From: an uncultured Rhodocyclaceae bacterium
GTDB lineage: Bacteria > Pseudomonadota > Gammaproteobacteria > Burkholderiales > Rhodocyclaceae
Reading direction: 5' to 3'
Assembly (NCBI GenBank): GCA_903950295.1
Contig: CAJBAP010000007.1
Span: 1 to 5,138, forward strand
Length of the DNA: 5,138 bases
Program-made: the position numbers and the translations under genes
In this document: piece after piece, positions 782-5,138 of the stretch
Layout: every line of letters starts with the position of its first letter
How positions within the stretch are numbered: the first letter of the stretch is position 1
Notes under the pieces: generated by a model
Database searches by the model: none
Seen by the model: only the letters and a program-made list of their open reading frames with translations
Told to the model about the DNA's origin: nothing

Positions 782-1066
782 TTAACTTCGTGAGTAAGCG
801 GTAATGTAGGAGAAGCAGGTGTGCGCATCGTCGGCCAGATCGAAAAAACTTAACTTGCGACGCTGCCATGGTGCAAATTCATAACCAATCATTTCTTTGT
901 TAAGGTCACGCAGTACCATGCCCCAGTCCGCGAAGAACCGGCTCCGGGCCGGGCCCTCAATGACGATACGCACATCACGGTGACGAGGATCAGCCTTGAC
1001 ACGGTCCATCAGGGCAAACAGCGCATCCCGCTTGCCTTCCAGTATCTGCATGAAATAACCGTCCTG
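782..1066 (-). pseudogene. C-terminal half of the BLUF domain, in frame after the internal TAA
   Basis: The codons after TAA 1069-1067 read QDGYFMQILEG... and continue to TAA 784-782, in the same frame as the upstream segment. With the upstream half they rebuild a BLUF flavin-binding blue-light sensor. Tyr977, Asn1001, Gln1019, Trp1060 and Met1062 are separated by 24, 42, 83 and 85 residues from the Tyr, the same offsets as Tyr21, Asn45, Gln63, Trp104 and Met106 of AppA. Gln1019 would be the switching glutamine beside the flavin. An ATG at 1051-1049 with AGGA 9 nt upstream could allow reinitiation of an 89-residue piece. That piece lacks the flavin-contacting Tyr and Asn, so it should not work alone. 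The domain identity is secure; independent function is doubtful. Confidence 0.8.
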
Positions 1067-1069
1067 TTA
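1067..1069 (-). other. In-frame TAA at codon 1012, at an expected aromatic position in BLUF
   Basis: The minus-strand codons read GTG TAA CAG GAC GGT. BLUF proteins usually have Tyr or Phe after the GI(T/S)GxLL strand and before xxGxFxQ, so the likely ancestral codon is TAC or TAT, one base from TAA. There is no insertion or deletion: the frame is the same on both sides and the BLUF residue spacing is exact. Confidence 0.85.
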
Positions 1070-3979
1070 CACCAGACAGCCCGAGATGCCGGCCGAGCGG
1101 TTGCACGACTGCGCCTGTTTTTGCAGGGCGTTGAGGTCGTCACTGGAGAAGGCCTGTGTTGCCTGGCTGACGTAGATCAGGAAATGGAGTAGAGACGCTG
1201 TGTCGGGTACATCCACTTGCAATTCACGGTCGACAGTCTCGACAAAAACCGATTCAGCCAGCGGACGATGAAAGTAGTAGCCTTGGATGAAGTCACACCC
1301 ATAGACGCACAGTTCGCGCTGCTGGGCGCCCGTCTCGACACCTTCCGCCACGAGCTTTAATCCCAGGGCACGCCCCAAACCAATCACGGCACGGATGATG
1401 GTACGGCTCTCTTCGCTCTTGTCGATGCCATCGACAAAGGCACGATCAATCTTCAGTACATTGACCGGTAGCCGCGTTAGTTGCGCCAGTGAGGAATAGC
1501 CGGTGCCGAAATCATCCACCGCTACCCGCAAACCAAGATCAGCCAGCCGCCGCAGGATGCGCAGATTGGTTTCGACATCGGCCATCAACGAGGTCTCGGT
1601 GATTTCCAGCAGCAGACGCGCCGGATCGGCGCCCGTCTCGCGCAAGGTGGCAGCAAAATCGTCGGCCAGCGTTTCCTCGTTCAGCTGCCGCACCGAGAGA
1701 TTCACCGAGACATAGGGCGCCCTGTCACCCCAGCGCTGGCGCCAGTCGGCCTCGGCACGACAGGCTTGGCGGAAGACCCAGGCCCCGATGGGCACGATGG
1801 CACCGGTTATTTCGGCAATCGGAATGAATACGGCGGGCGAAACCTCGCCCTCGGGCGGATGCCAGCGCAAGAGTAATTCGGCACCAAGAATACGACCGCT
1901 CTCGGCCGCGACGATGGGCTGAAAGCGTGGCGACAACTCGTTTCGTTCGATGGCCGAACGCAAGCCATTGGTGATGATCAGCCGCTGCTTGGCCTGATCC
2001 TGCAGACTTTCGCTGAAGAATTGCCAGCCATCACGCCCTTTTTCCTTCACTGCATACATCGCGGTGTCGGCAAAGCGCAACAGATCGTCGGCGGCGTGAG
2101 TGCTGCCGCTGCCGATGGCAACGCCGATGCTGGCAGTAACAAATAATGACAGGCCGTTGAAATCGACCGGCTGACGCAGGATATCGTTAATCCGCTCGGC
2201 CAGGACAGACATCGAGGTCGGCTGCTCGACCTGCTCGCACAAAACAACAAATTCGTCCCCGGCCAAACGGGCGACGGTATCACCTGGCCGAGCCTGTTCA
2301 ATCATCCTGGCCGCCACCGACTTCAGTACCGCATCGCCGGCTTCATGACCGTGGGTGTCGTTGATCAGCTTGAAGCCATCGAGGTCGACGAACAACAACG
2401 CCACACTCACGCCGCTGCGCCGAGAACGCTGCAAGGCATTGGTCAGCCGCTCACGGATCAGAGCGCGGTTGGGCAGGCCGGTGAGCGGGTCATGGGTGGC
2501 ACGCCGCGTCAGTTCATCCTCGGCCTTCTTGCGTTCGGTAATGTCACGCATGGTGACCACCAGCAGCCATTCGTCACCATTCCTGAATTTGGCAATGGAG
2601 GCTTCTAGCGGGAAGAAACTGCCGTCCTTGCGATAGCCCATCACATCGTTCCGCCCGGACATGCGGCGCTCCGTTTCCTCACCCGCGACAAAGCCACGCA
2701 GCAGTTCGGCATGCCGTTGCCGGAAATGGGGTGGCAGCAGGAGGTGCACCGACATGCCGAGCAACTCCTCCTCCTGGTAGCCAAAAACAAGGCAGGCACT
2801 GAGATTGGATTCGGTGATGATGCCCTCGGCATCGGTGGCCAGGATCGCCATATCGGCAATCGACAATATCTGCTGCGCTGTGCCGACTCGGCGTCTGGCG
2901 GCACCGACTTCCGCCGCCAGACGGGCCGTAACGGCCGGTGTGGCGGGTGATTCATGCAGGCGCGCCGCTTTGACCTGTTCACGATAACGTTCGGGAATCA
3001 CGGGAGGGTTGCGACCAAAGTTCTCGACGATGCTGAAGGTGCCATCAGCATTGCACCGCGACAGATAGGTATTAACGCTGGCGTGATGGGTGACTGCATC
3101 CATCTCGACCACACCCTGCGGCCCGACGACACGCACTCTTTCCAGCGCACCGACCAGTGCCTCGGCCTCGGTTGTACCCGCTGCCGCCACCGCATTAGCG
3201 AAGGCGTGTACGCACAGGTAAGTGCCTTCACCAAAGTTTGTCAGCACGCCATTGCCATGCGGCCAGATGCCATCGACCCCGGGCTGGCGCAGCAAGCGCT
3301 GCTGATAGTGGCGGTTTTCCGGTGTTTCGAGCGACATGAAATAGGAGTTACTCGAATAAAAACCTTCGCGCACCTCCGCCGAGAGACGGCTCACCATCAT
3401 CTCGTCGTAATGCCCCATCACCACGGCCATGCGAGATTTCAGACCAAGTTCGGTGAAACGTGTCAGCAGGGTGATCTGGTCGCTACCTGCAAAGTAAGGC
3501 ACAAAGACGTCGGCGCCCGAACGGCCAAGCTGTGCCAGCAGTAGGTCAATAGCAACAGTGTCGCAGCCTATCGGCAGGTATTCCTCACCGACGATGTCGC
3601 CGTCGAGACGCTGCAAGGCACGCTTGGCCGCGTCAATCGATCCGCGTGGCCACTCGTAGTTGTTGCCGGCAAAGAACATCTTGAGACCGTAGCGCCGCGC
3701 CATGAAAGGAATCATCTGGTCGATCTGCTGATTGGGCAGTGCGGCAAAATGGAAGAAGTAGCGACCGCTGATGCTGCCTTCGTAAAACGAGAAGTTGAGC
3801 AGCGGAATCTGCTTTGGTTCGGCCACCTGCGCAGCCACGGCAATACGTGAATTGGAAAGCAGATTGCCGATGATGGCGACGCAACCATGTGCATCGATCA
3901 GCCGTTCAGCCGCCGGCACGGCAGTATCCGGCAGGCTGCCATCGTCCTCAATCACCAGCTCCAGCGGCCGCCCCAGCAC
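1067..3979 (-). CDS. Longest open segment of the signalling gene: binding domain, PAS, GGDEF, EAL and half a BLUF domain (970 codons)
   Basis: Residue numbers follow the full frame from ATG 4102. This stretch is open from a GTG at codon 42; that GTG has no good ribosome site and lies inside the binding domain, so it is probably not a native start. The binding domain shows ERGGVLGRPLEL, GNNYEWPRG (near 146-154) and VGPQGVVEMD, resembling amide- and urea-type receptors. PAS runs from QILSIADMAILATD to VVTMRDITERKKAEDEL. GGDEF has HDPLTGLPNR (537-546), DLDGFK (573-578) and AGDEF (614-618), a permitted variant of the active site. RPGD (605-608), five residues before it, is the cyclic-di-GMP inhibitory I-site. 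EAL has ELLLRW (742-747), Asn801, Glu833/Glu836, Asp863-Asp864 in DDFGTG, Lys884, Glu920/Glu923 and Gln940, a full phosphodiesterase set. Both enzyme domains therefore look potentially active. The segment ends in GISGCLV, midway through BLUF. Confidence 0.8.
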   Translation of the reverse strand: MLGRPLELVIEDDGSLPDTAVPAAERLIDAHGCVAIIGNLLSNSRIAVAAQVAEPKQIPLLNFSFYEGSISGRYFFHFAALPNQQIDQMIPFMARRYGLKMFFAGNNYEWPRGSIDAAKRALQRLDGDIVGEEYLPIGCDTVAIDLLLAQLGRSGADVFVPYFAGSDQITLLTRFTELGLKSRMAVVMGHYDEMMVSRLSAEVREGFYSSNSYFMSLETPENRHYQQRLLRQPGVDGIWPHGNGVLTNFGEGTYLCVHAFANAVAAAGTTEAEALVGALERVRVVGPQGVVEMDAVTHHASVNTYLSRCNADGTFSIVENFGRNPPVIPERYREQVKAARLHESPATPAVTARLAAEVGAARRRVGTAQQILSIADMAILATDAEGIITESNLSACLVFGYQEEELLGMSVHLLLPPHFRQRHAELLRGFVAGEETERRMSGRNDVMGYRKDGSFFPLEASIAKFRNGDEWLLVVTMRDITERKKAEDELTRRATHDPLTGLPNRALIRERLTNALQRSRRSGVSVALLFVDLDGFKLINDTHGHEAGDAVLKSVAARMIEQARPGDTVARLAGDEFVVLCEQVEQPTSMSVLAERINDILRQPVDFNGLSLFVTASIGVAIGSGSTHAADDLLRFADTAMYAVKEKGRDGWQFFSESLQDQAKQRLIITNGLRSAIERNELSPRFQPIVAAESGRILGAELLLRWHPPEGEVSPAVFIPIAEITGAIVPIGAWVFRQACRAEADWRQRWGDRAPYVSVNLSVRQLNEETLADDFAATLRETGADPARLLLEITETSLMADVETNLRILRRLADLGLRVAVDDFGTGYSSLAQLTRLPVNVLKIDRAFVDGIDKSEESRTIIRAVIGLGRALGLKLVAEGVETGAQQRELCVYGCDFIQGYYFHRPLAESVFVETVDRELQVDVPDTASLLHFLIYVSQATQAFSSDDLNALQKQAQSCNRSAGISGCLV

Positions 3980-4039
3980 CCCGCCGCGTTCGTTGATTTC
4001 ATCACAGGCGATACGCGCCGCCCAGACAATTTCGGGGCC

Positions 4040-4042
4040 TTA
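4040..4042 (-). other. In-frame TAA at codon 21, at the expected Tyr of a YG motif in the binding domain
   Basis: The frame reads LTGLVEI-stop-GPEIVWAARIACDEIN. Type I periplasmic-binding proteins commonly have Tyr-Gly at this point (TGxxxxYG...), so a TAC or TAT codon is the probable ancestor. Homology resumes immediately after the stop in the same frame. Confidence 0.8.
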
Positions 4043-4247
4043 AATTTCAACCAGCCCGGTCAGGGGCGGCATCAGGCCAAGGCGAATTGAGTCAGGTATC
4101 ATTTATTCCATTTTCCTATGATTGAATCTCACGAATGTGGCCCACTGGTTTTCTGATAAAGACTGTTGGACCCTCAGGTATGCATCCGACACCCAAAGGT
4201 TGCTCGAAAGTCTTAGCTATCTGCGAGGTGGTGGCTGAGTAAAATCA

Positions 4248-4353
4248 GCAATGGTTGAACCTCGCGACCATTGCCACTCGGCAGTAAAGGGCTGCTTTGT
4301 TATGAGTTAGCTGCCGCTCATGTTAGCTCATCTTCCGGCCTATCAGAGGCCGG
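4248..4353. repeat. Array of three inverted repeats in the spacer
   Basis: Three stems stand in a row. GCAATGGT (4248-4255) pairs with ACCATTGC (4267-4274), 8 bp with an 11-nt loop. CGGCAG (4279-4284) pairs with CTGCCG (4311-4316), enclosing a smaller AAAG (4286-4289) / CTTT (4295-4298) stem. CCGGCCT (4335-4341) pairs with AGGCCGG (4347-4353), 7 bp with a 5-nt loop. The last could slow or end transcription from the methyltransferase gene, whose stop is about 20 nt away, but no T-run follows. The arrangement fits a degenerate intergenic repeat or a folded RNA leader. No known riboswitch or named small RNA was recognised. Confidence 0.55.
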
Positions 4354-4356
4354 TTG

Positions 4357-4372
4357 TGGCCGTTGATGGCCG
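4357..4372. repeat. Second copy of the 16-mer TGGCCGTTGATGGCCG
   Basis: Identical and in the same orientation to 588-603, about 3.77 kb away on the other side of the signalling gene. Similarity continues as AGTC two bases beyond, so the unit reaches over the methyltransferase stop codon (4373-4375). The motif contains a short GGCC / GGCC inverted repeat. Confidence 0.6.
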
Positions 4373-5044
4373 TCAGTCGCCATACGCGCCCGCTGGGTTA
4401 ATTGCTGTTATTTTGGCGCGCTCAACCAGCGCTTCGGCTTTGGTAGCCGATAGCCATTTCCAGGGCAGCGGAATCAGACCCGGCACTTGCTGTCGGTAAT
4501 CCCGATAGGCTGCGCCGAAGTGCGCTTCCAGTTTGTGCTCTTCGAGGCGTGAACCCACCAGGAAATAGAGTGTCATCGCGCCGGCCGAAATCAGCAGCGG
4601 CGCATTCATGTCACGTGTCCAGATCAGCAGCAGCCCGAGTGCGTACCAGGGGTGGCGCACATGGCGGTGCAGCGGTGAAATGCGAAAACCTTCGTGCTCG
4701 ACTGCATCCGTGCGCTTTTCTCGCCAGGGTCGCGTGCCGAGGAATTCCCCCATGTCGTAATTCCGCGTGGAGAAATAGAAGCCGGCAAGTGTTGCCAGCG
4801 CCAAGCCATTTGCCACCCATGCCAGCGGGCCGGTCCAGCGCCACAGCCAGTCACCGGGCAGTGCGTACGTTGCCCACACCAACGGCACCAGCAGCAGCGT
4901 CTCCAGCGCATTGAAGGTCAGGCGGTAGTACGGCGCAAAGCCTGGCCAGCGCCTGGTCACCCAGGCTTTGCATGCCAGTGCCGCGAGCAGCGAATGGAGA
5001 GCGGCGTAGGCGATCCAGCCGAGGGCAAGCCAGAGCAGTGCCAT
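4373..5044 (-). CDS. Integral-membrane methyltransferase of the NnrU/MddA/isoprenylcysteine-methyltransferase type
   Basis: A 223-residue protein with about five predicted membrane segments (roughly 3-24, 46-62, 72-92, 132-143 and 147-164). The N-terminus contains AALHSLLAA (14-22), like the HSLLAS signature of NnrU/MddA proteins. The C-terminal half has RHVRHPWY (127-134) and EEHKLEAHFGAAYRDY followed by VPGLIP (187-192). This is the S-adenosylmethionine-binding arrangement of the ICMT/PEMT membrane methyltransferases. MddA relatives methylate methanethiol to dimethyl sulfide, and NnrU is linked to denitrification gene clusters; the substrate here cannot be chosen. The ATG (5044-5042) shares one base with the argJ stop (TGATG), which implies translational coupling and cotranscription. 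No strong Shine-Dalgarno sequence precedes it. Length and motifs look complete, ending in TGA 4375-4373. Confidence 0.85.
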   Translation of the reverse strand: MALLWLALGWIAYAALHSLLAALACKAWVTRRWPGFAPYYRLTFNALETLLLVPLVWATYALPGDWLWRWTGPLAWVANGLALATLAGFYFSTRNYDMGEFLGTRPWREKRTDAVEHEGFRISPLHRHVRHPWYALGLLLIWTRDMNAPLLISAGAMTLYFLVGSRLEEHKLEAHFGAAYRDYRQQVPGLIPLPWKWLSATKAEALVERAKITAINPAGAYGD

Positions 5045-5138
5045 CAGCTGCGATAGTCGGCGTTGATCTTCACGTAGTCGTAGCTGAAATCGCAGGTCCA
5101 GACGTTGGCTGCATGGCTGCCGCGGCCGAGGTCGACGC
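5044..5138 (-). CDS. argJ: Bifunctional ornithine acetyltransferase/N-acetylglutamate synthase ArgJ, C-terminal end (runs off the right edge)
   Basis: Only the last 30 codons are present, reading [20 protein letters not shown] and ending [10 protein letters not shown], then TGA (5046-5044). This tail is highly characteristic of ArgJ: the DLGRG and VWTCD strands and the terminal [10 protein letters not shown]. ArgJ transfers acetyl from N-acetylornithine to glutamate in the cyclic arginine pathway, in the cytoplasm, and cleaves itself into two chains; this is the end of the beta chain. The stop overlaps the next start by one base, so the membrane methyltransferase is probably in its operon. 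The catalytic residues lie outside the window. Confidence 0.9.

Follow-up and report, generated by a model that had tools for sequence, protein, structure and literature searches.

The stretch of DNA analysed here (the window) comprises 5,138 nucleotides from an uncultured Rhodocyclaceae bacterium and carries on its minus strand what is probably a broken copy of a gene for a BldP-type cyclic di-GMP (c-di-GMP) enzyme, an identification that rests on genome searches for orthologues in two genomes of presumed identity. Intact members of the family share one order of five domains, and our best explanation, which we regard as probable, is that they would be cytoplasmic enzymes in which sensors of a solute, of oxygen through heme and of blue light converge on a single GGDEF-EAL core. 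The family is real, widespread and already partly characterised; here it is present as a broken copy.

Domain architecture and identity of the gene

The reading frame runs from position 4102 to position 785 and, with TAA read as X, is 1106 codons long, interrupted by just two in-frame stops ahead of a TAA terminator at 782-784. The first stop, a TAA at codon 21 (4040-4042), falls early in the binding domain, and the second, a TAA at codon 1012 (1067-1069), splits the BLUF domain between its reactive Tyr (codon 977, 1172-1174) and its reactive Gln (codon 1019, 1046-1048). From the amino terminus the frame encodes an AmiC/UrtA-like and apparently cytoplasmic type I periplasmic-binding-protein domain (residues 5-372, 2987-4090), a FixL/DosP-type PAS domain with predicted heme binding (residues 409-525, 2528-2878), a GGDEF domain with an AGDEF motif and an RxxD inhibitory site (residues 535-691, 2030-2500), an EAL phosphodiesterase domain with its catalytic residues present (residues 714-947, 1262-1963) and the split BLUF domain (residues 972-1062, 917-1189), all on the minus strand. 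Pfam searches of the 970-residue piece between 3979 and 1070 matched Peripla_BP_6 (1.9e-53), Peripla_BP_5 (1.6e-47), PAS_9 (1.4e-12), GGDEF (1.4e-45) and EAL (1.1e-71). Both halves of BLUF exceeded the Pfam cut-off of 25 bits, the first on that same piece (25.4 bits) and the second on the piece from 1051 to 785 (44.7 bits). An intact near-copy of 1106 amino acids, P0003, is 96% identical to the window protein over the searched stretch and carries all five domains in a single chain by Pfam, with BLUF at 8.6e-26 and 90.3 bits. The matches on the window pieces and on P0003 bear out the five domains, their order and their coordinates as given in an initial annotation of the window; the joined frame which it described does span 1106 codons, but the double interruption of the window copy was not plainly stated. 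A predicted model of the first end of the protein was confident for each domain but not for how the domains are arranged (predicted TM score, pTM, 0.66).

Genome searches tie this gene to BldP. All eight genomes examined for the genus Allochromatium contain one full-length orthologue each, 69-100% identical to the query and in one case with an internal TGA, and each has exactly one BLUF domain in a frame of more than 1,000 residues, at the place of the orthologue. Among 48 genomes of the class Magnetococcales, BLUF was found in 5 and a long BLUF protein in 2. Two of the genomes searched are taken here to belong to Allochromatium vinosum and to Magnetococcus marinus. Each has only one long BLUF protein, a full-length family member that shares 58% identity with P0003, and both proteins, like P0003, have all five domains with the EAL-BLUF order at the C terminus by Pfam. 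BldP reportedly has a C-terminal EAL-BLUF module, and its activation by light is said to depend on oxygen. For both species, Table 1 of PMC8846402 lists BldP (Ryu et al. 2017, doi 10.1128/JB.00014-17) as a blue-light-activated phosphodiesterase with a BLUF domain and flavin adenine dinucleotide. The window copy differs from these proteins in being interrupted twice. The implied novelty of a BLUF domain placed after EAL falls away, since this order already occurs in the BldP of both species according to the genome searches; the domains, order and motifs of the earlier interpretation stand, and the PAS sensor, like the double interruption, had been missed.

Within a full-text literature search on heme in BldP and on this architecture, which covered few subscription papers, BldP turned up in PMC8846402 alone, and no account of heme in BldP came to light. 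Passages of PMC8846402 and PMC8892541 describe the use of BldP in optogenetics through a cut-down form, EB1. The EB1 of PMC8993538 is an unrelated microtubule protein.

Distribution of the five-domain order and of BLUF

Of 7,998 candidates scored in a search of proteins, 7,544 passed, and all five domain types are present in 108 of the best 120 homologues listed, the other 12 lacking a Pfam match to BLUF. A scan of genome contigs gave 165 relatives, 80 of which were kept as loci; by Pfam, their open reading frames (ORFs) contain EAL in 79, GGDEF in 80, PAS_9 in 79, Peripla_BP_6 in 78 and BLUF in 61, the last count being the same with purpose-built profiles. Carriers include isolates, for example Parazoarcus communis (L010) and Allochromatium (L034), and intact homologues with the same order are found in Rhodocyclales, where the initial annotation had proposed to look for them, and well beyond. 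Among 200 genomes from the order of the genome that holds L001, 68 encode BLUF, with 108 such domains in total, and only 3 of these lie in frames of more than 1,000 residues, namely that of the centre genome and two full-length members that share 74% and 70% identity with P0003; the architecture is therefore widespread yet makes up a small share of BLUF proteins. A shortened member at L078 (7989-10034) ends in GGDEF and has neither EAL nor BLUF.

BLUF is the least conserved of the input domains (mean pairwise identity 0.43), and most of the 28 BLUF-less rows end cleanly after EAL. On a 93-row tree the BLUF state changes 13 times, and gain is indistinguishable from loss because the trees were quick and had no root; as read from these trees, the BLUF state has changed repeatedly, by one or the other. 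One relative, an 841-residue protein at L103 (1060-3582, genome G101), has the order PAS-PAS-GGDEF-EAL-BLUF; the shared PAS-GGDEF-EAL-BLUF part is 53% identical over residues 415-1105. It differs in having no binding domain, a second PAS standing where that domain would be, while EAL-BLUF is kept.

The two in-frame stops

As it stands, the window copy would yield neither a complete binding domain nor a working BLUF domain. At the 265 columns where at least 97% of sequences agree, the sole deviation of the window protein is its first stop, and a separate ENA record of 3,151 bases, P0002, which possibly derives from the same sample, encodes the identical 970 residues and breaks off where the window product does; the stops are for these reasons either very recent or sequencing errors. 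Whether they are errors of sequencing or assembly, with the gene intact in the organism, is to our minds an evenly balanced matter. The frame shows no further decay, deviating at 4 of 407 columns at the 90% level where intact P0003 deviates at 3 of 407, as would be expected of an error; the identical product in P0002, subject to the possible common sample, and the internal stop in one of the eight Allochromatium orthologues speak for genuine interruptions. A single in-frame TGA interrupts the orthologue L085 (G009:C1:979121-982441).

Catalytic and light-sensing residues

Residue counts were taken from an alignment of 113 BLUF-bearing members, made up of 54 of the best 120 listed proteins and 59 of the 80 loci, picked by length. 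The EAL catalytic residues are invariant in this alignment, all but one of the 113 members retain the GGDEF residues Asp616 and Glu617, and 110 retain the RxxD Arg, L024 and L064 being the exceptions among the catalytic residues of the GGDEF domain; the catalytic motifs read in the window are intact. The BLUF Tyr is kept in 112 members, and the flavin-binding Asn, the Gln and the Trp are each present in all 113. Intact members would be predicted to raise c-di-GMP hydrolysis in blue light. The GGDEF domain may be no working cyclase, binding GTP or c-di-GMP and only tuning EAL, as is known for other GGDEF-EAL proteins, and the motif is AGDEF in 79 of 113 members and has an SGDEF-type first residue in 14, while in the M. 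marinus protein the Arg of RxxD and the leading Asp of DLDGF have both been lost. Against such a loss of cyclase activity stands the near-invariance of Asp616, Glu617 and the RxxD Arg, and we consider a purely tuning role possible but somewhat doubtful.

The PAS domain as a predicted heme oxygen sensor

Searched alone against solved structures, the window PAS domain matched FixL first (2.9e-15) and then DosP (1.3e-05), and a profile of 49 members matched FixL at 5.1e-19, DosP at 1.8e-18 and the first LOV domain at 4.4e-9. The first 14 distinct PDB sequences of the profile search include 13 that are FixL or DosP, counting yddU and 'Heme pas sensor protein' as DosP, and the fourteenth (10jx) is a multi-sensor kinase. 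His464 (codon at 2711-2713) is invariant in all 113 members and stands opposite DosP residue 77, which we take to be the heme ligand, in the printed profile alignment. Arg484 (2651-2653) is likewise invariant and lies within one position of FixL R220 and DosP R97, coinciding with R220 in three of five printed alignments of the window PAS, the gap placement varying between alignments. PAS-GGDEF-EAL stretches of 20 paralogues within the same genus served as a control; the His was found in none of them and the Arg in 3, with the reservation that so distant an alignment is rough. The NCBIfam FixL model matches the PAS domain at 48.5 bits, far under its whole-protein cut-off of 850. Taken together, these comparisons indicate that the PAS is very probably a heme domain of the FixL/DosP type and a third sensor.

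A PAS that is cofactor-free or binds flavin and merely relays signals, its invariant His being structural, would account for the weaker matches to LOV domains and for a distal Arg placed only to within one residue, and PAS domains are often cofactor-free. We nevertheless think this unlikely in view of the 13 FixL or DosP sequences among the first 14 and the absence of the His from all 20 paralogous proteins.

The binding-protein domain

By contrast with BLUF, the binding domain is the most conserved in the protein (mean pairwise identity 0.68 against 0.43), with a type I binding fold of the AmiC/UrtA kind, an invariant motif of its own and invariant residues at cleft-type motifs. No N-terminal segment exceeds a mean hydropathy of 1.56 in the 113 rows; the AmiC-like domain lacks a signal peptide and is apparently cytoplasmic, in keeping with the earlier description. 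Its score against the NCBIfam model urea_ABC_UrtA, 150-152 bits, does not reach the cut-off of 492.75. The predicted ligand is a single small polar solute, fixed for the family, that probably resembles an amide or urea without being urea. Around the 80 loci, no neighbour family recurred in more than 10 when greedily called ORFs were clustered without annotation; none of these unannotated neighbours was identified as a urea or amide gene, and no AmiR-type partner emerged as a recurrent neighbour, although no search by the name AmiR was made. Because the neighbour clusters were not annotated, we claim a link to ABC transporters or amidases neither way.

The lack of a recurrent neighbour and of identified urea or amide genes would also suit a domain that no longer senses a small molecule and serves as a platform for docking or dimerisation, as AmiC docks AmiR. 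Against such a platform stand the highest conservation of all the domains and the invariant residues at cleft-type motifs, and we judge this account improbable. In the sections of PMC8846402 that treat the periplasmic-binding-protein (PBP) clan, its domains are called periplasmic, and SBP_bac_3 is named as the only one studied in c-di-GMP networks. Measured against that account, the BldP-type family is a widespread, apparently cytoplasmic exception with a strongly conserved ligand site.

A predicted three-input enzyme

On this evidence, an intact member would be a single cytoplasmic protein in which three sensors serve one GGDEF-EAL core. The Venus-flytrap domain of the AmiC/UrtA kind would read one fixed small polar solute, the FixL/DosP-type PAS would bind heme and read oxygen, and the helix between PAS and GGDEF would take its state from ligand and oxygen. 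The C-terminal BLUF would read blue light and, as others showed for BldP, raise phosphodiesterase activity, acting from the opposite end on the EAL dimer, and the net effect would be removal of c-di-GMP in the light under a permissive state of oxygen and ligand. The dual control by a metabolite and blue light proposed in the initial annotation thereby becomes a three-input prediction, in which the heme sensor is what is new and what lends itself best to testing. We lean slightly towards a switch built permanently around the solute and heme-oxygen sensors, with light sensing as an optional addition gained or lost by individual lineages. If correct, three inputs would explain at the level of domains the oxygen dependence reported for light activation of BldP, and light control in these bacteria would be gated by oxygen and nutrition.

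Several observations weigh against this reading. The heme His is missing from 2 of the 28 BLUF-less rows, the profile alignments to RmFixL and DosP place Arg484 one position away, and R479 lies near a place that is hydrophobic in FixL. The invariant Asn148 (113/113) stands in place of the Asp common to AmiC and UrtA. In 68 of the 113 rows some 19-residue window exceeds a hydropathy of 1.6, which makes the call of no membrane segment partly one of judgement; the largest value, 2.06, coincides with the beginning of PAS (residue 411 in the row concerned). When the BLUF structure was compared, EAL matches filled both lists, although the predicted model does show the order of strands and helices expected of BLUF. 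BLUF changes number only 8, at least 4 of them forced by starred branches, on an 84-row tree that drops two sequences cut inside BLUF (L061 and P0089), two with odd tails (P0015 and P0037) and five on long branches (L067, L068, L073, L074 and L080). Finally, the names given to the A. vinosum and M. marinus genomes are presumed ones.

Several known systems resemble parts of the predicted enzyme. FixL provides the closest solved PAS but is a histidine kinase, and DosP, which matches in sequence and fold across PAS, GGDEF and EAL and likewise joins a heme PAS to GGDEF-EAL, has neither a binding domain nor BLUF, two of its PAS domains being matched. AmiC shares the type I binding fold without an export signal, whereas the identity to AmiC and UrtA is 24-28% and the domain is here fused to an enzyme. 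BlrP1 and YcgF/BluF also couple BLUF to EAL, but their BLUF is N-terminal, as stated in passages of PMC8846402, and they have no binding, PAS or GGDEF domain.

Two further accounts concern the frame itself. That TAA codes for an amino acid in this organism is very improbable: both internal stops are TAA and stand at columns where relatives agree on one amino acid, but the gene also ends in TAA where its relatives end, and with 26 of 93 single changes to a stop giving TAA (0.28 per stop), the chance that both would be TAA is 0.08, so we rejected recoding. An artefactual join of two contigs, to which the double interruption might point and which the initial annotation would have concluded had all close homologues been without BLUF or without the binding domain, is negligibly probable and was rejected in view of the order shared by 108 of the best 120 listed homologues from many assemblies, 61 of 80 loci and isolates.

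Genomic surroundings

Upstream of the BldP-type gene and on the same strand lie the end of argJ (5044-5138, assigned by eye) and, adjoining it, a hydrophobic membrane protein of 223 residues (4376-5044) with no Pfam match up to E = 1. Just downstream, also on the minus strand, begins a gene for a PhnD-like binding protein of the phosphonate type (2-490; Phosphonate-bd, 1.3e-22). This protein has a leader like that of a lipoprotein and matched one neighbour ORF weakly (25%, at L010). No RNA families or tRNAs were found in the window. An imperfect 31-base direct repeat (84%) flanks the gene at 579-609 and 4348-4378; its exact core, GGCCGTTGATGGCC, occurs twice in the window (0.09 expected) and is absent from the 123 fetched loci, and it is possibly a small repeat element. 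At nine loci (L009, L012, L032, L033, L037, L054, L056, L057 and L072) the BldP-type gene has a second, separate gene with GGDEF directly beside it in the same orientation, and the sensor parts of these adjoining genes differ by lineage.

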